Positions 7,586 to 21,706 of a stretch of DNA of 64,000 nucleotides are shown here, in pieces. Below the pieces are notes generated by a model, which had not been told where the DNA came from, ran no database searches, and was given only the letters and a program-made list of their open reading frames with translations. A program made the position numbers and the translations under genes. The stretch is from contig NZ_PIPW01000001.1 of the NCBI RefSeq assembly GCF_003987215.1, positions 434,001 to 498,000 on the forward strand, written 5' to 3'. Within the stretch, counting starts at the first letter, position 1, and each line of letters starts with the position of its first letter. The DNA is from Pseudidiomarina halophila. Its GTDB lineage: Bacteria; Pseudomonadota; Gammaproteobacteria; Enterobacterales; Alteromonadaceae.

Positions 7586-8665
7586 GTGAAAGCAAGGATA
7601 CTTTTCCCGCTGTTATTTATCTTGGTTGTATTAACGTCATTACTCTCTGGCTGCGCTAGCACTCCCAAATCGAGTAAACATCACCAAGGTAAAATTAAAC
7701 ACGACCTTTTCCCACCTTACGCTGATCGGTCGCTTGATATTCACGTGCAAGAAGCGCTTATGCGTCGTGGGTTAATTCAAGATGTTCGCGGTGAGGTTTT
7801 ACCTGCGAGTAAGCACAGCTGCCCTATTTATACATACTGGGAGCCAGAGTCGTTTACCTCGGATTATATGAAAGAGAATTTTATCCCGCTATACGATGGT
7901 ATCCATCTCACTATTGTCGAACGCCGGGATGAATTGTTTATTGAGTCGCGTGACGGTTCTAGCCTTCCGCTTACGACGGTAACTATCGAAAAAATTAAAT
8001 CAGCACTGCCAAAACGAGCGTTCCTCCGATTCGACTTGCAGCAGGTTAGGAACACTAAACGTTTGGCGTCGGTAGGTGCGAGTTTAAGAGCTCAGTTTGT
8101 AACGGACGTGGTAACTTTGGTCACGGCGATCGAAGTTTTGCCGCGTGCTCGCAATGTTTATGTGGATATAAACAATGTAAAAGCCATCTGGGATGACGGG
8201 CGCGTTTTCGCAAGAAACGAGGAAAGTATTAGCGATGTGCTCTACCAAACCTTTACTACTATGGTTGAGCGGAATGATTACAATTTATCTGCCGACAGTA
8301 TAAGTGTAACGGGTAATTTACTTGGTGTGTGCCAGCAGTTAACTAATTTTGTTTATGCACCGGAACAGCCACTGACACAAGCCGTTGAAGGTAATGTTCC
8401 CCTGACTTCAGTGATATTAGGTTTGCCGAAAAATGCGAACTTCAATCGATTAAATGATCAACGGAACTTAATCGCTTCTGGAAAATATCTTCGTTTCGAT
8501 GGACAGGTGGTGCAATTAGCAGATCAGCTTGCAGTCGGAAAAGTTAAAACAAATTGCGAAACGTTAAGCCCTACCGACCCAGACTATCGTTATTGCCAAG
8601 TGCGACATAACGATGAAGTGGAAACAAATGATGAAACTGTCATCATTCGCACAGGGAATAACTAG
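7586..8665 (+). CDS. Unknown lipoprotein, first gene of an unrecognised five-gene membrane cluster
   Basis: About 359 residues. A GTG start at 7586 is preferred: AAAGGA lies 6-10 bases upstream and the protein then begins with a textbook lipoprotein signal (basic VKAR, hydrophobic stretch, lipobox LLSGC, Cys23). An upstream in-frame ATG (7526) would bury this signal. After Cys23 comes a hydrophilic, mixed alpha/beta protein of about 335 residues, with three to four further cysteines (HSCPIY, GVCQQ, NCETL, RYCQ), which fits an oxidised periplasmic protein. I recognise no domain. It ends two bases before the next gene, so translation is probably coupled. G+C is visibly lower than in the flanking helicase genes. 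Confidence 0.75.
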   Translation: MKARILFPLLFILVVLTSLLSGCASTPKSSKHHQGKIKHDLFPPYADRSLDIHVQEALMRRGLIQDVRGEVLPASKHSCPIYTYWEPESFTSDYMKENFIPLYDGIHLTIVERRDELFIESRDGSSLPLTTVTIEKIKSALPKRAFLRFDLQQVRNTKRLASVGASLRAQFVTDVVTLVTAIEVLPRARNVYVDINNVKAIWDDGRVFARNEESISDVLYQTFTTMVERNDYNLSADSISVTGNLLGVCQQLTNFVYAPEQPLTQAVEGNVPLTSVILGLPKNANFNRLNDQRNLIASGKYLRFDGQVVQLADQLAVGKVKTNCETLSPTDPDYRYCQVRHNDEVETNDETVIIRTGNN

Positions 8666-8667
8666 CT

Positions 8668-11157
8668 ATGAGGTTCAACTACCGAATTCCACTCATCTTT
8701 TTGTTTTTCGCTGTTTATATACTGCTAGAAATCAACTTGAATCTTAAGCTGATTGATCTCTACTCAAACCCAGTTACATCGGTGCTTGGAGCAAAGGCTG
8801 AAGAGGCTCACTTTGTCGAGTTCCTTGGGCGGATGATTACTGGGTTTGGTTTAGCTTTGGCGCTGGTTACATTAATTCCGGAGCTGTCATTTGAGCGTAA
8901 ATACCGAAGTGCGTTTGTGCGCAGAAGTATTCGATTGCTCATGTTTCTTGCGTTGTGGGCAGTGCTAATTCCCTCGATTCGAGTGGTGGTGGATTCTGTT
9001 GTTGAGAATTCATCACCAGAACAAAAGATGAATGCGGTTCGTGCGGTTATTTTCAAAGAGGCTTATTTGGCCGATATGGTCGCGATTGACGATCTCGAGC
9101 GATTATCCGTATCTAACGAAACGCAAAGCGAAAAGAAGTTGGTTGTATCACTAATTCCATCGTTGGCGTATTTTTCAGAAAGATTTAATGGTTACATTGG
9201 TCGCCAGTTAGATGAGCTAACCAATGTTTATATTAGAAACTATCAAAATGCTGCTTTTACTCGTGATGCAGTGCCAAAGTTAAATAGCTTGAGTTCGTTG
9301 TATGAGCAAGAAATGGAATTGTATAGCTCGGCGCAACGTGATGCGCGCGAGGTTATGGGAACGGTTCAAAATTACGATAATTTAGAGGCTAAGACGCGAG
9401 AATGGCACGACCAAGCAGTGCAATTATTGAATACGAGTTGGGATTCGTATGTTAGTGAATACGAAAAGGCTTCAGATCTTGCTGATACGATAACTGAACA
9501 AATTTACGATGATTATCGTGATCAAGCAAAAGACTATGAACGGGTGAGCTGTAATGCGGATTGTAAGGAGCGAATTCGTGTCAACTGGTCTAACTTTATC
9601 ACGAGCCTCACGTGGGAAGATGGTTCCAAGATTCAACTCTATTTTGAGCCCGATGAACCTCATTTTTATTTGCTGTATTTGTTCGGCCGAGAGAACCATT
9701 TTAAGGCCTATATTCAAAACGCTCGCCGAGCATTTTTGAACAAATTGTGGGGTGTAGAGGAAGACGTAACTTATGAGAGCTTCATTAATAATGACAAGGT
9801 GATTAGCTTTGTTATAACCCAAGTACGAAAGTTAGAGATGCCGCTCTCGGTTAATTGGAAGCCCACCCGTATGGATATCACGCGGAGTGATGTCGAGAAA
9901 TATTATGCGGGCAAGGGAGAGTCGGTTTGGAAACGCTACTATGAGCGTTCGGAATTTGATGTTAGTAACCGCTCACTGAACCGAGTTGAGTTTTTTAAGC
10001 TGCCGCAAATTAAGGCTTATGCACGCGACGAACTGGACTCGTTTTATATTGATGCCTACGAGCCCTATTTGTCTAACAGTGAGTATTATGAGCTCTGGAA
10101 TAATCGGCAAAAAGAAAAAAACCTCTCGTTTGTGCAGCTGATTAGCTCAACGGTTGCCGATGCAGCTTTTTCACCTGGCGGTTCATTCCACCAAATAGGT
10201 ATTGAAGCCGTTAAGTTTGCTGTGATCCCACCTATTTCGATCATGCTTAGTTTTTTAGCCATCTTTCTTCTTGTCCTGAAGGCGAGTCGTTATTTGCGTG
10301 ACGAGTGGGCGTATGCAGCGAATAAGATCCTATGGGCCTTTGTTGCACTTGGTTTGATTATTCCGGTCGCAATTTCGGTGCTGTCTTCAAATTCCTATAC
10401 GCGAATGATGGCTGACTTTGTAGGTAAAAAGCAAAGTCCAAGCGTATATGAGTCGTTTGTGAGTTATGGCTTTGGGGTTTTCTTAGATTTAGAGAGCACA
10501 ATTTATCATCAGCGGGACGTTTTAAAGATTCCAGGGTTCGGTGACTATGAAGAGAAGGACCCAGTTAAAGCGATCTATGAGCGTGTAAGAGATTACGATG
10601 ATGCGATGTATGAAAGCCTTCGTTTTGCGCCTGAGCTGATTAACCTTTCAGAAGTTCCAGAGCCCTACGATATTAACTTATCGATACTCAAGCGTGACTT
10701 AAATGTCGGGATGTTCATGGGCGTTAAGATGGACGGCATGGCTGTTGATTCAGTGAGTATTCCTAATGTCTTTGGCAATGACAAGCTCGGTTATATTTTT
10801 GAATCACGTTTTATTTTGGACCCGAATTATGACGATCTGTTCGTGAGCCATATGTTGAATGCGCGTGATCCGGACTATTGGTTGAAGCTTGCATCGAACG
10901 ACGTGGGCCGCATCTCACTGTTAAATAAGTTAGAGCAAAAGACTGCTGATTTCTTGCGGTCGCGATCTGACTTAACGGCGAACATTAATAGCAGTATTGC
11001 TCAGGGGTATCGAAACATTATCTTCATTCAATTGAATCGTGAAGATCAGTATGAATGTCTTCGTTTGCCGGAGTTTACTATTTCAACATTTGTAGAGATG
11101 TTCTCCGGGGCCGACATTTCGACCACTGAGAAATATCGTTGTGGGGGAGTCTTTTAA
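8668..11157 (+). CDS. Large polytopic membrane protein of unknown function
   Basis: A protein of 829 residues. Membrane segments are predicted near residues 7-24, 52-71, 88-108, 516-538 and 554-574. They bracket a soluble domain of about 400 residues (110-510) that is rich in charged and aromatic residues with helical or coiled-coil character (for example 180-290), and leave a C-terminal domain of about 250 residues. Cysteine pairs (VSCNADC near 295, YECLRL and YRCGG at the end) suggest disulfides in extracytoplasmic parts. There is no Walker, kinase, nuclease or transporter motif. It sits between the lipoprotein and three small membrane proteins, and its TAA overlaps the next ATG. I infer a scaffold or channel-like core of an envelope complex. 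Confidence 0.75.
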   Translation: MRFNYRIPLIFLFFAVYILLEINLNLKLIDLYSNPVTSVLGAKAEEAHFVEFLGRMITGFGLALALVTLIPELSFERKYRSAFVRRSIRLLMFLALWAVLIPSIRVVVDSVVENSSPEQKMNAVRAVIFKEAYLADMVAIDDLERLSVSNETQSEKKLVVSLIPSLAYFSERFNGYIGRQLDELTNVYIRNYQNAAFTRDAVPKLNSLSSLYEQEMELYSSAQRDAREVMGTVQNYDNLEAKTREWHDQAVQLLNTSWDSYVSEYEKASDLADTITEQIYDDYRDQAKDYERVSCNADCKERIRVNWSNFITSLTWEDGSKIQLYFEPDEPHFYLLYLFGRENHFKAYIQNARRAFLNKLWGVEEDVTYESFINNDKVISFVITQVRKLEMPLSVNWKPTRMDITRSDVEKYYAGKGESVWKRYYERSEFDVSNRSLNRVEFFKLPQIKAYARDELDSFYIDAYEPYLSNSEYYELWNNRQKEKNLSFVQLISSTVADAAFSPGGSFHQIGIEAVKFAVIPPISIMLSFLAIFLLVLKASRYLRDEWAYAANKILWAFVALGLIIPVAISVLSSNSYTRMMADFVGKKQSPSVYESFVSYGFGVFLDLESTIYHQRDVLKIPGFGDYEEKDPVKAIYERVRDYDDAMYESLRFAPELINLSEVPEPYDINLSILKRDLNVGMFMGVKMDGMAVDSVSIPNVFGNDKLGYIFESRFILDPNYDDLFVSHMLNARDPDYWLKLASNDVGRISLLNKLEQKTADFLRSRSDLTANINSSIAQGYRNIIFIQLNREDQYECLRLPEFTISTFVEMFSGADISTTEKYRCGGVF

Positions 11158-11345
11158 TGAAGAAGTTCACGCAAAAAATAGCTCAGCTAATGATCAATAA
11201 TTTTCTTTTGGTGGCTGTCCTTTTTGGTGGTTTGTTGTTCGTGTCATATCACCAGCAAGCGGCTTTTAATAAAGAATACTCAAAGGCTCTCGAGTCAGTT
11301 CAACGCATCAAAACCAAAATCGCACTAACCCTAAATCACTCATAA
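11157..11345 (+). CDS. Small single-span membrane protein (unknown cluster, gene 3)
   Basis: 62 residues from the ATG overlapping the previous stop by one base (TAATG). It has a basic N terminus (MKKFTQK), one membrane segment (about 14-32), then a short charged helix (NKEYSKALESVQRIKTK). An upstream in-frame ATG at 11139 would overlap the large gene further and is less likely. No family recognised. Confidence 0.65.
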   Translation: MKKFTQKIAQLMINNFLLVAVLFGGLLFVSYHQQAAFNKEYSKALESVQRIKTKIALTLNHS

Positions 11346-11363
11346 AGTTAAAGGAAGCATGTC

Positions 11364-11639
11364 ATGGAGAATCGGTTTTTTAATATCAAGATTGAGCTGT
11401 CAATGCTTTTCTCTTTCGGTATTGCTGTCTACTTAATGGTGACCGCACACAATGCCAATCTAGAAAATGCCCAAAAGCTAAATGAAATGCTGGTTAAGTA
11501 TGAGCACCAGCTCGATAGCATGATTTCCTCTGATCAGGAAACCTTAAAAATTTATAAGGAGAACCTTGATAAGGCGGCAAGTTCACTTTCAGATGAAGAA
11601 AAAGAGTTTCTTCTGCGTGTACTAGAACTGGAAGGTTGA
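11364..11639 (+). CDS. Small membrane-anchored coiled-coil protein (unknown cluster, gene 4)
   Basis: 91 residues: one membrane segment near 10-28, then a strongly charged helical region (about 30-91) with heptad-like leucines (LENAQKLNEMLVKYEHQL). AAGGAAG lies just upstream of the ATG. The layout resembles small subunits that dimerise through a coiled coil. No family recognised; same strand and tight spacing put it in the operon. Confidence 0.65.
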   Translation: MENRFFNIKIELSMLFSFGIAVYLMVTAHNANLENAQKLNEMLVKYEHQLDSMISSDQETLKIYKENLDKAASSLSDEEKEFLLRVLELEG

Positions 11640-11677
11640 TCATTCCCTAGGGTTGGAGTTTCAAGAAGGAATAAAAA

Positions 11678-11932
11678 ATGTTCGACATGCTAAACCATAA
11701 TTTGGAGGTCGTTGCCAACAAGTTTTTTTATGACTGGTTCATGCAGATTGTTTACATTCTTTGCGTTTTATATATACCTATCTTTCTTGCCCGAAGAAAA
11801 GAAGATGGATTCTTCGGCATAACGGTTATTTACTTTGTAGCGACTATTGTGCCCTTCGCTCAGCTATTGCTTTTGCTCATAGCACTACCAATTTCCTTGG
11901 GTAGTATTCTTAGCTTGATCAAAGACTCTTAG
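11678..11932 (+). CDS. Small two-span membrane protein (unknown cluster, gene 5)
   Basis: 84 residues with two hydrophobic segments (about 22-38 and 48-75) separated by a basic loop (ARRKEDG). AGAAGGA sits 6-8 bases before the ATG. The third consecutive short membrane protein downstream of the 829-residue protein, and the last gene of the cluster; over 300 bp of non-coding DNA follow. Confidence 0.65.
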   Translation: MFDMLNHNLEVVANKFFYDWFMQIVYILCVLYIPIFLARRKEDGFFGITVIYFVATIVPFAQLLLLLIALPISLGSILSLIKDS

Positions 11933-17493: not shown

Positions 17494-19596
17494 CTAAATG
17501 CATATTCCCGGAGTAAATGAATCATCTATCTCAACGTCACGGATATCACTGCAAACGCCTTCTGCTGTATTACAGCCTCTTAATCGATAGTATGCATAAG
17601 TATTGTCGAACAAGAATGAACCTTTGTTGTAGCTATTAATAAGCTCGTATTTTTCGCCGTCATTACTGCCGTAAAAACGATATCGAATGTCTGCGAATCG
17701 ATCATTTAACAAATAGCCATCCATACGATAAGTGGTGCACATATTCTTATTAAACTCTTGCGCTTTAGACAAAAATGAGGAGTCTTCGCGACTTAAGTTG
17801 TTGGCCAGGTAATGTGACGCTTTCGGTTGAGTTAAAATTTCGCCTCCAAGCAAAATACGCATAGTGTTTTCAAAGTTAACCGCACCTGCGCCACAACCAA
17901 TAACCGCGCAAGATGTATCACCACCATTTGCACCTACTGTCAGATCCCTTGCACCTGATTTCATTATATTACGCACTTCTTCACCCGTTAGGGTTTTGTC
18001 GTAAAGTTTAATAAGACCCGCAAGACCCGCTACGATAGGACCTGAAAATGATGTACCACTTACTCCTGAATAATCAGTTTCAAGCGCTTCAAGTGTTTTA
18101 GTAGCAGTTGCAGCACGGACAGAAGAACCAAGCGCCATTAAATCAATACCAGTACCGTAGTTTGTAAAGTTTGTAGGATTACCCCATTCGGTTACTGCAC
18201 CCACACTTACAAAATAAGGACAACCAGCGACTGAACCATCTGACATATGATAACGACTGTTACCAGCAGAGACAATCAATACAACGCCACGATCAGAAGC
18301 CATTTTCGCAAATTCAGCCAATGCACCAGTAGAACCCGACTGATCAACAGAACAGTACCAACCTTCACTACCAAAAGACATATTAATAACATCGGCTGGA
18401 TATTGGGTTTTCGGTGTCAGTGTTTCATTAAAACCTGCACTATAAAATGCTGGCAACTCTAACTCACCAATAGACCAGTACATCGCCATAAGGTTAAAGC
18501 TTGAATAACCACCACAATCATCAACAGCAAGAGCAGAAACAAGGTTTACATTATCTTGTGGGATAATACCTGCGATACCAATGTTGTTATTTGAAGTCGC
18601 ACCGATAATTGATGCAGCATTCAAACCGTGTGATGATTTAATCGCTGTACCATCTGTTTCGTAACGAATCCAATCGTATTCAGCAGCCTGTTCAGCAGTT
18701 GGTTCATTTTGTAAGTAACCATAACCATTATTAGAACGGTTGCTGCATGATTCATAAATCGCATAATCTGGACGACTTGGATCTTGTGAACCATTTAACC
18801 AAATAACACCGTCATCACCTTCATCATAATCATAAGTGTACTTAATATCCATATACTCAGCGTATTGCACATCTTCATGCTCAATAAAACCTGAATCAAT
18901 TACATGAACATTTACTTTATCATTTGTGTTAAATACACCGTGGCGTGACATTAAATCAATTGCCGCTTCAATTGAAGCGGCACCATAATAACCTGATGAT
19001 TGCTTAGCAAAGTGGATTTGCTCTGGATAAACAGGATCGTTAAAGCTGCTTGGGTTTAATACAGACATACCACCCACATCACCTTCATCACCCTTTGATT
19101 GCAAAGTAATATACTGATCTTCTTCAACATAGTTAAAATAACCCGTGCTAAATAAATTGTCAGCGACTTTATTTAATGGAGCTCTATCTGTTGTAGCTAC
19201 CGTAATAATATGGATATCATTAAAAAAACTATGAAATTGTACTTCGTATCCGAATAGTCGTTTAATTTCACTTTTGAAAGACTGATCGGTTTTGAAGTCA
19301 TTGATATCGCGAGTATGAACTTGTCCTTTATATGAGAAACTAACTCCAGAACCGCTGTTTTTTCGTCGAAGCTCTTCATTATTAACAAGCGACATGGATA
19401 AATTTTCATCTTTAAAGGACACCATAAAACGATACAAAGTTTTGTTGCTATTTTCCGCGTAAAACTGGTTGTTGGTCGTTTCTTGTGCAAAGGATTCAAT
19501 ATACGATTGTGAGTTAGATTCTATCGCTAAAGCTGACGAAGACATAAGAAGTAACACAGCAGAATGAGTTAATAGCTTTGAAATAAGTGATTTCAT
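17494..19596 (-). CDS. Secreted subtilisin-like (S8) serine protease
   Basis: A protein of 700 residues. Signal peptide 1-24 (ends SSSALA), an inhibitor-like propeptide (about 50-165, with a FSxxY.. V.EDQ ending typical of I9 prodomains), then the S8 catalytic domain. Catalytic residues are in standard context: Asp234 (HVIDSGF), His323 (SHGLNAASIIGA), oxyanion Asn446 (SAGNS) and Ser516 (GVSGTSFSGP). The C-terminal 130 residues carry several cysteines and are not obviously a known domain. It would act outside the cell or in the periplasm. It lies 37 bp downstream of the modular lipoprotein gene, so the two are probably co-expressed. G+C is low compared with neighbouring core genes. Confidence 0.9.
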   Translation of the reverse strand: MKSLISKLLTHSAVLLLMSSSALAIESNSQSYIESFAQETTNNQFYAENSNKTLYRFMVSFKDENLSMSLVNNEELRRKNSGSGVSFSYKGQVHTRDINDFKTDQSFKSEIKRLFGYEVQFHSFFNDIHIITVATTDRAPLNKVADNLFSTGYFNYVEEDQYITLQSKGDEGDVGGMSVLNPSSFNDPVYPEQIHFAKQSSGYYGAASIEAAIDLMSRHGVFNTNDKVNVHVIDSGFIEHEDVQYAEYMDIKYTYDYDEGDDGVIWLNGSQDPSRPDYAIYESCSNRSNNGYGYLQNEPTAEQAAEYDWIRYETDGTAIKSSHGLNAASIIGATSNNNIGIAGIIPQDNVNLVSALAVDDCGGYSSFNLMAMYWSIGELELPAFYSAGFNETLTPKTQYPADVINMSFGSEGWYCSVDQSGSTGALAEFAKMASDRGVVLIVSAGNSRYHMSDGSVAGCPYFVSVGAVTEWGNPTNFTNYGTGIDLMALGSSVRAATATKTLEALETDYSGVSGTSFSGPIVAGLAGLIKLYDKTLTGEEVRNIMKSGARDLTVGANGGDTSCAVIGCGAGAVNFENTMRILLGGEILTQPKASHYLANNLSREDSSFLSKAQEFNKNMCTTYRMDGYLLNDRFADIRYRFYGSNDGEKYELINSYNKGSFLFDNTYAYYRLRGCNTAEGVCSDIRDVEIDDSFTPGICI

Positions 19597-19633
19597 GATT
19601 AATTCCCTAATCGGTATCTAAAAGTCTTCGTGA

Positions 19634-21706
19634 CTATCGAATAAGCTCAAAGAACAAGTCCTGGCTACTTGCATGAACACCAACAAGATAAGAATATGCG
19701 CCGTCAAACAGCCAGATGTCATTGGCGTAGCTGCCGTAATTGCTATTACCCACAAGCAAACTGTATGTTTCAGCCGAGGATACAGTATTAGGGTATATAC
19801 CACTGTATAGGTCAGCATTTAGCAAACCATAGTTTGTACCGTTTATACGGTTGTACTCTGTAACATAATCATTAATCATACGAACTTTATATTCAGCCGC
19901 ATTATTAACCGATTCTTTACGAGATTTACTATCAACATCAAACAATTTTACTGACATTTCGCCCTTATATTGAAGAATCATATCATTCCAAAAATCAATA
20001 TTTACAACAGAGGCAAAATTAAGACCGACACTGTAATCCACTGTATTTTCAGCATAAACCATGCGGTATAAACGACCCACCAGAGTAACCATAGTTTTAT
20101 TATACTGTTCAAGATTACGGGTGATCAGGTATGGTTCATTCATCTGCGCATAACCATTTGCTTCAAAGGTTTCCATCCAAAAGTTTAAAACCATATCAAG
20201 CTCTAATTCAGAAGCAGCCAATTTAATATACTCAACTAATAGATCTTCTGCCTCTTTACGGTTTTGAACAAAAGTTGAATATTCATTAACGCTTAGCAAA
20301 AATGGTGCATAAGAAACAGTAACACTATCATTTAAACGATTACCGCTTTCATCCAACAAGTAATACACAATACCCAGATAGAATGGAGAAATCCAATCCT
20401 GATTCGTGTCAATCAAACCTTCTGGATCACTTAATTTAAAAGTCAGTTCATTAGCATCATATGACCAAGTGAAGTCAATATCATTCGCTGAATCCCCAAA
20501 AGTCGGGCGGTATAACACATCAACAACCTCAATTTCACGATAATCTTGTGTAAACGCATAATCATCCAATGGTCGCAAATCAGCATAAGTGTATTCTTTA
20601 TCCAATTCTGCAATGTTAACTGTCGTAAATGGTTCAAGAACAGAACCCGACATTAGGTTTGAATAAGCAAAATAGACATCATAATATTTTGATTGCGAAT
20701 CACCATCTGCGTTGGTTACAGTAAATTCAAGCACAACATCACGATCATGAGTTAAATGATCGGTTAACACTGTTATTTCCTGCGCATAAGAATCATGCTT
20801 AACAACAGCTTCACCAACAAGCGTCTTGGGATCTTCATCAGTATTCTTATTAGTATCCAAATTGAATACTGTTACCACTACTGATTCAACATCACCAAAA
20901 TCTTGATTAATTTCATAAGAGAAATTAGCGGTAGCACCTATACTTGCCTGATAATGAGCTGTTACTTCTAATGATTCATTGCCACGAGGATTAAACGTTG
21001 CTGGTTGCTCGCCGTTGCAGTAACCGACCAAACAAAATGCCGTCACATAGGCACTGGTGTCGGAGGTAACATCAACGTTAACAGTAAAAGTCGTAGACAA
21101 ATCGACAGCATTGGTGACGGTTAGCGTCATGGTTTCAAACTGGCCGAGCACGGCGTTATCATTGACATCAAGTGTTATTCCGCTGGTCCCATCTAAGGTG
21201 TAGTCGAGACCTTCGGTTGTGGACGCTGTTACCTTAACCGTTTCGTCAGAGTTATTGGCGGCAATACTCCAGGCTAGCGAGGTTGAACCCTGCAGAGGGA
21301 GGCTGATGTTAATTTCACCACCACTGACGTCTTGTTCGTTATAAGTTATTGAGGGTGTCCGCGGGATTTCGTCGAAGCTTGCAGTGATGGTGCAGTTAGC
21401 AGTCACTGCATTAGTGGTAAAAACGTTAGCATCCAGAGCGCCGCCACAAGAACTGGTTACTTCGCCTATTTCGAAATGCTCTTCCTGAGTAAGGGTGACC
21501 GAGGCTTTTTCGTTTTCCTTAACTTTCTGGCTGGTTGGGCTGACGCTGCCGCCTGAACCATCAACGCTCGCTGATACCTCGTAAAAAGTCGTAGTGGCAC
21601 CACCACCACCACCACCACCGCCGCTTGGAGACGAATCACCGCCACCGCCACAAGCTGATAATAGGAAAAGCGTCGAAAAAACAATGAGGGGACGTAGTGC
21701 TGTCAT
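19634..21706 (-). CDS. Modular surface lipoprotein with an InlB-like repeat
   Basis: A protein of 690 residues. Lipoprotein signal with lipobox LLSAC (Cys19), then a Gly/Ser linker with eight consecutive Gly. Residues of about 40-115 form an InlB B-repeat-like module (SASVDGSGGSVSP, a Cys pair, TANCTITASF), found in bacterial adhesins. Next is an immunoglobulin-like stretch to about residue 215. From about residue 235 to the end the sequence is Asp/Asn/Tyr rich, with no domain I recognise. A surface-exposed adhesin, protease substrate or inhibitor would fit its place immediately upstream of the subtilase gene; this is inference. Base composition changes sharply inside the gene near 21,000 (see findings). 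Confidence 0.75.
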   Translation of the reverse strand: MTALRPLIVFSTLFLLSACGGGGDSSPSGGGGGGGGATTTFYEVSASVDGSGGSVSPTSQKVKENEKASVTLTQEEHFEIGEVTSSCGGALDANVFTTNAVTANCTITASFDEIPRTPSITYNEQDVSGGEINISLPLQGSTSLAWSIAANNSDETVKVTASTTEGLDYTLDGTSGITLDVNDNAVLGQFETMTLTVTNAVDLSTTFTVNVDVTSDTSAYVTAFCLVGYCNGEQPATFNPRGNESLEVTAHYQASIGATANFSYEINQDFGDVESVVVTVFNLDTNKNTDEDPKTLVGEAVVKHDSYAQEITVLTDHLTHDRDVVLEFTVTNADGDSQSKYYDVYFAYSNLMSGSVLEPFTTVNIAELDKEYTYADLRPLDDYAFTQDYREIEVVDVLYRPTFGDSANDIDFTWSYDANELTFKLSDPEGLIDTNQDWISPFYLGIVYYLLDESGNRLNDSVTVSYAPFLLSVNEYSTFVQNRKEAEDLLVEYIKLAASELELDMVLNFWMETFEANGYAQMNEPYLITRNLEQYNKTMVTLVGRLYRMVYAENTVDYSVGLNFASVVNIDFWNDMILQYKGEMSVKLFDVDSKSRKESVNNAAEYKVRMINDYVTEYNRINGTNYGLLNADLYSGIYPNTVSSAETYSLLVGNSNYGSYANDIWLFDGAYSYLVGVHASSQDLFFELIR
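21598..21618 (-). repeat. Trinucleotide microsatellite in the lipoprotein gene
   Basis: Seven tandem CAC units on the plus strand (GTG/GGT on the coding strand) encode most of the polyglycine linker after the lipobox. Changes in copy number would stay in frame and alter linker length. Confidence 0.85.

Follow-up and report, generated by a model that had tools for sequence, protein, structure and literature searches.

The stretch of DNA analyzed here (the window) comprises 64,000 nucleotides of the Pseudidiomarina halophila assembly GCF_003987215.1 (contig NZ_PIPW01000001.1, positions 434,001 to 498,000), and at positions 7586 to 11932 it carries five genes on the forward strand, the first four of which form a conserved cassette. 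Gene 1 (open reading frame [ORF] 7586..8665, GTG start) encodes a 359-aa lipoprotein, and gene 2 (8668..11157) encodes an 829-aa membrane protein for which hydropathy and a structure model give five transmembrane segments, with the N terminus predicted inside and the C terminus outside. Gene 3 (11157..11345; 62 aa) has one transmembrane segment and, in the alignment, a conserved RIK.K close to its C terminus; gene 4 (11364..11639; 91 aa), whose homologues follow gene 3 elsewhere, has one transmembrane segment and a helical tail; and gene 5 (11678..11932; 84 aa) has two transmembrane segments and is an orphan outside the conserved unit. The ORFs bore out the initial annotation, which had described five same-strand genes separated by anything from a 1-bp overlap to about 40 bp: the successive spacings were 2, −1, 18, and 38 bp (the last taken from coordinates). 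Its claim of good ribosome sites held for genes 1, 3, 4, and 5, which by eye are preceded by Shine-Dalgarno-like purine runs, and less well for gene 2, where the run is weaker. It was also right that the region is lower in G+C than the flanking helicase gene (0.38 to 0.44 for the five genes versus 0.547 for the helicase gene and 0.503 for the whole window). Scans of the locus for promoters and terminators gave matches at chance level only.

None of the five proteins had an above-cut-off family match in Pfam, NCBIfam, PHROGs, or PADLOC (2023 library). Every candidate family was rejected as falling below its cut-off, including PHROG 2429 for gene 3 (E = 0.0036), which had no other support. To this extent the proteins were, as first described, unrecognized; the description did not stand for gene 2, which has a wider family, or for gene 1, which is related to lipoproteins of the glycerophosphodiester phosphodiesterase (GDPD) family, as shown below.

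We looked for the cassette in other genomes. A first scan of genome contigs with single proteins gave no match. Cassette-type loci were then obtained from a search of the order (L039, L040, and L041) and from a later alignment scan of named genomes, which gave 11 loci (L059 to L069) in Shewanella, Paraglaciecola, Marisediminitalea, Alteromonas, Aestuariibacter, and Bowmanella; L040 and L061 are one contig, leaving 13 distinct loci besides the window. Homologues of genes 1 to 4 were present in identical order at all 13 (lipoprotein, large protein, protein of about 61 aa, protein of about 100 aa). Because the window, L039, L040, and L041 supplied the sequences for the search profiles, the independent loci number 10 of the 13. 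At every one of these loci the gene 3 homologue lay directly 3′ of the gene 2 homologue and was followed by a gene 4 homologue (34 to 42% identity). The genes mostly overlap or sit no more than 5 bp apart, the exceptions being 115 to 117 bp before the 61-aa gene at L041 and L065 and 38 bp before the large gene at L066 and L068. An additional complete locus, L155, was found later, and a broken one (L157, genome G888) has genes 3 and 4 and, of gene 2, the C-terminal part alone.

The ratio of nonsynonymous to synonymous substitution rates (dN/dS) was 0.03 to 0.25 in 19 of 20 gene-by-pair comparisons (five species pairs; several dS values were above 1); the exception, at 0.52, was the 61-aa gene in the pair L060/L061. 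Divergence was correlated among the four proteins (Spearman 0.69 to 0.86), as it would be for any co-inherited genes. Gene 5, by contrast with genes 1 to 4, lacked a positional homologue at all 13 other loci, and among 59 genomes searched it turned up in its own alone, leaving 58 relatives without it. Its phmmer matches (E = 0.06 at L040/L061 and 0.4 at L068) proved to be short ORFs overlapping cassette genes and were rejected. The conserved unit is thus genes 1 to 4, and the five-gene synteny anticipated by the initial annotation reduces to four. That the genes are chance neighbors forming no functional unit describes gene 5 alone; for the cassette this account is hardly credible, since a gene order repeated at all 13 other loci, mostly between unrelated flanks, is synteny above chance and contradicts it.

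We next considered how the unit is distributed. Among 59 near relatives, gene 2 was found in its own genome, with a distant match in one congener, G004 (E = 8e-18). In the order, 30 of 394 genomes had some match to a family profile, and 7 of these were judged to match through the PEGA region only or as a fragment (6 PEGA-only plus G259). Of 196 genomes in the family, 7 carried cassette-type gene 2 (E < 1e-200; one is the broken G888), and in a class sample of 369 genomes only its own did. Gene 2 relatives were absent from phage records at E ≤ 0.1, and a pattern scan of viral contigs gave none. Flanking genes recur within a genus and are hardly shared between genera, with two neighbor clusters (c15 and c30) each joining two loci from different genera. 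Because the distribution is patchy and the flanks mostly differ, the four-gene unit looks mobile and horizontally spread; foreign composition and patchiness agree with the horizontal acquisition first proposed. In view of the same patchiness, we think that an accessory or conflict role linked to the envelope is likelier than a housekeeping one.

The region upstream of the DEAD-box helicase gene varies among congeners (L096 to L112) and holds different cargo. The cassette genes were absent from 17 such congener stretches (one cut by a contig end); L096 instead holds a DUF4062 protein matching PADLOC PDC-S60, and L099 and L102 hold what by eye appear to be type I restriction genes. Such cargo, together with low G+C and the occurrence in 7 of 196 family genomes, is what one would expect if the cassette were an anti-phage device, or an immunity device in conflict between bacteria, that sits in a variable locus. 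We consider this unlikely, as no cassette protein matched PADLOC, no toxin or nuclease domain was found, and the neighbors at other loci, judged by eye, do not suggest defense islands. Such islands were not supported as the general context of the cassette.

Gene 1 carries the lipobox LSGC-A and five cysteines, consistent with the several cysteines first reported for it. The residue at position +2 underlies the prediction of lipoprotein sorting, Asp being the determining residue; gene 1 has no Asp there, and its product is predicted to be anchored in the outer membrane. GDPD (PF03009) lipoproteins, such as that of L005 on a Pseudoalteromonas donghaensis plasmid, are likewise encoded by the gene immediately before a gene 2 relative, and we compared the two groups as family profiles. 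The match between the cassette and GDPD lipoprotein profiles stood at 97.5% (E = 5e-12) and, once signal peptides were removed, at 96.0%; the best shuffled control reached 6.0% (30 shuffles, full length) or 1.07% (20 shuffles, without signal peptide), and the reversed control reached 0.07%. The signal is carried by the flanks (C-terminal flank, 96.4%, E = 1.1e-9; N-terminal flank without signal peptide, 72.6%). Both groups have these flanking segments and the flanking cysteines in common, and the C-terminal match includes a motif, LP.(D/N)A(D/N)F..L, that starts at residue 280 (8423..8491). Between two invariant cysteines lies a putative remnant of the GDPD barrel (residues 79 to 249; 7820..8332), proposed from Foldseek, with a nonsignificant core profile; this core is about 170 residues long versus about 300 in the GDPD lipoproteins. 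Beyond it, an alignment of 11 rows shows a C-terminal tail (8555..8614) with invariant C324, C337, R340, and D343.

The motifs HRG, ExD, and HHD are the catalytic and metal-binding motifs of GDPD enzymes. All 12 GDPD lipoproteins compared have HRG, ExDV, and HHD, and none of the 13 cassette lipoproteins, the window's included, carries any of them; the 12 are full-length ORFs, L056 (split into two ORFs) and L052 (truncated) having been dropped, a selection that counts against the comparison. None of 11 cassette lipoproteins matched the PF03009 profile at E ≤ 1. Two loci whose operon is otherwise complete have no barrel at all: the L069 and L155 lipoproteins (127 and 92 aa) consist of the anchor and the two-cysteine tail, which is kept. 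The GDPD motifs are missing as well from the L161 lipoprotein, whose gene adjoins an ATPase operon; the loss is therefore not limited to the cassette. Judged by sequence, the cassette lipoprotein is related to GDPD lipoproteins and has lost their catalytic motifs.

Several observations weigh against this relationship. The GDPD core alone was at noise level (1.45%, E = 0.035; best shuffle, 1.18%). The gene 1 model, built from cassette sequences only, was poor, with a mean predicted local distance difference test score (pLDDT) of 61, and although its first Foldseek match was the GDPD structure 3no3 (E = 2.9e-3, probability 0.98), there were zero matches at E ≤ 0.001. All VIA Z values were below 8, and unrelated TIM barrels were tied or ahead. 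The association with gene 2 also has exceptions: in the regions read, the gene before a gene 2 relative encodes a GDPD lipoprotein at many loci, but L043 to L046 have other lipoproteins in that place, and L007 and L042 have none. In separate searches, pairwise BLASTP of the gene 1 product (P0001) against the congener lipoprotein P0011 gave nothing significant, nor did comparison of genes 1 and 2, singly or as profiles, with solved structures, a result that covers the families on those lists.

In gene 2, hydrophobic segments start near residues 7, 52, 90, 519, and 554. The initial annotation had noted an internal soluble domain of about 400 residues; it is present between segments three and four, and a second large soluble region, at about 574 to 829, has to be added. 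In the model (md4d43d4e4268; mean pLDDT, 68) the first of these, residues 109 to 512 (8992..10203), is helical and predicted to be periplasmic, with two long helices of 64 and 55 residues (171 to 234 and 236 to 290) and invariant C295 and C299. The second, residues 574 to 829 (10387..11154), is a predicted periplasmic alpha/beta C-terminal region in which the alignment shows invariant C797 and C825. The short loops 70 to 87 and 538 to 553 are rich in Lys and Arg. From these charges and the invariant cysteine pairs, we predict that the N terminus is inside and the C terminus outside; the invariant pairs of genes 1 and 2 fit an oxidizing periplasm.

Relatives of gene 2 were found by tblastn on plasmids of Pseudoalteromonas and Neptuniibacter (E = 3e-12, 3e-9, and 4e-8), and in Vibrio at E = 0.04 to 0.07 only. 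The Pseudoalteromonas relatives have a PEGA domain (PF08308) at the C terminus and a GDPD lipoprotein gene upstream. The PEGA domain matched P0007 above cut-off and did not match gene 2 (P0002): gene 2 and the PEGA-type proteins are homologous over the N-terminal two thirds, including a PPIS motif before the fourth transmembrane segment, and gene 2 has a different region at the C terminus. By this homology gene 2 is a member of a wider family of PEGA-type membrane proteins, which is apparently undescribed. The GDPD lipoprotein loci are without the small genes 3 and 4, both of which the cassette has. Orthologues of the large protein standing mostly without the other genes, which the initial annotation had named as contrary evidence, are not seen for the cassette type, and it is the distant homologues that lack the two small genes. 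Downstream of the PEGA-type relatives at L005:10202-11968 and L053:5414-7306 lies a gene for a membrane protein of 557 to 635 aa with zinc-finger-like cysteine pairs, for which no family scored above cut-off.

These features lead us to favor, with roughly even confidence, the explanation that genes 1 to 4 are a horizontally spread operon for a bridge from the inner to the outer membrane with a nonenzymatic docking lipoprotein; the anatomy is consistent with the trans-envelope assembly first suggested. Gene 2 would cross the inner membrane five times and place two large domains in the periplasm, one with a long helical hairpin. The gene 1 product would be an outer membrane lipoprotein descended from a GDPD lipoprotein that was the partner of gene 2's ancestors and, its active site lost, might now tether gene 2 at the outer membrane, chiefly by the lipid anchor and by the C-terminal tail with its disulfide. 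Single-span accessory subunits with periplasmic tails would come from genes 3 and 4. Weighing against the bridge, the gene 2 model has no convincing structural match, fold searches returning unspecific helical matches only. The operon, its conservation, the loss of the motifs, and the family relations are observed, and orientation, localization, complex formation, and docking are what we infer.

GDPD descent and a membrane partner would equally suit a sensor of envelope lipids or stress, in which the dead barrel would keep its affinity for glycerophosphodiester head groups and use gene 2 to pass on the signal. The two loci that keep the operon and have no barrel speak against such a sensor, as does the lack of any signaling domain in the library searches, and we regard it as quite unlikely. 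If the bridge is correct, the cassette offers a concrete four-protein target for the study of trans-envelope assembly, and the loci preserve stages in the passage from enzyme to scaffold: intact GDPD, a barrel without catalytic motifs, and no barrel. Among the papers listed in searches of the open-license PubMed Central (PMC) literature, none described the cassette or the pairing of GDPD lipoprotein and large protein.

Finally, the gene 1-gene 2 pair has relatives that keep different company. At L056 to L058 and L161 (L161:20-9157), a lipoprotein gene and a gene 2 relative are clustered on the same strand with a gene for an FtsK-type ATPase of 960 to 972 aa. In NCBIfam this ATPase scores best against EccC/EssC domains but, taken whole, stays below cut-off; small helical proteins beside it had subthreshold WXG100 matches (E = 0.0013, 0.01, and 0.038). 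A long, strong match to this EccC-like ATPase, beside WXG100-like proteins, was found in eight genomes (G931, G004, G131, G207, G173, G210, G957, and G982), seven of which have the family's large protein. The two are adjacent in six (in G957 and G982 from coordinates, about 3.5 kb apart), and the congener G004 has the ATPase/WXG100-like operon (L180:6338-12271) and the lipoprotein-large protein pair (L008:6913-9802) on separate contigs. In a 59-genome sample of the genus to which G131 belongs, the ATPase and the large protein occurred in the identical three genomes (G131 being known beforehand); G210, of the same genus and outside that sample, has the ATPase without the large protein, which makes it a counterexample. 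For the order, 3 of 5 sampled ATPase genomes had the pair (Fisher P = 0.0016, uncorrected for kinship), and 20 of 23 large-protein genomes in that sample had no ATPase.

Mobile WXG100/FtsK-like modules, proteobacterial ones included, are described in PMC11090510 and PMC3482391, and according to PMC11090510 the ATPases that it covers are without EssC transmembrane domains. Modules of this kind are the operon-mates of the gene 1-gene 2 relatives at L056 to L058 and L161. They have an ATPase, whereas the EccC/EssC-type enzyme was found in none of the nine cassette-type genomes (other ATPases were not searched for), which gave short FtsK-like matches only (E = 1e-6 to 1e-7). Genes 3 to 5 had no WXG100 match at E ≤ 1. 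As a tentative possibility, the lipoprotein-gene 2 pair could be a missing envelope component of Gram-negative mobile type-VII-like systems, with the cassette an ATPase-free offshoot that gained two small subunits and whose GDPD lipoprotein decayed to a docking subunit. The pair would then be a testable candidate for how such modules, thought to be without membrane parts, cross a double membrane. The clustering with the ATPase could also mean that the cassette proteins are subunits of a secretion or transport machine whose ATPase is encoded elsewhere, which the absence of the EccC-like enzyme from all nine genomes makes very unlikely.

A more distant ATPase of the EccC-like type, at L181 (G338), lies among what by eye appear to be vWA, phosphatase, and kinase genes, as in TerY-P modules. 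Elsewhere in the window, a low-G+C gene pair with zero PADLOC matches occupies positions 17494 to 21706 of the reverse strand, where a 690-aa protein without a Pfam match accompanies a 700-aa subtilase (Peptidase_S8).

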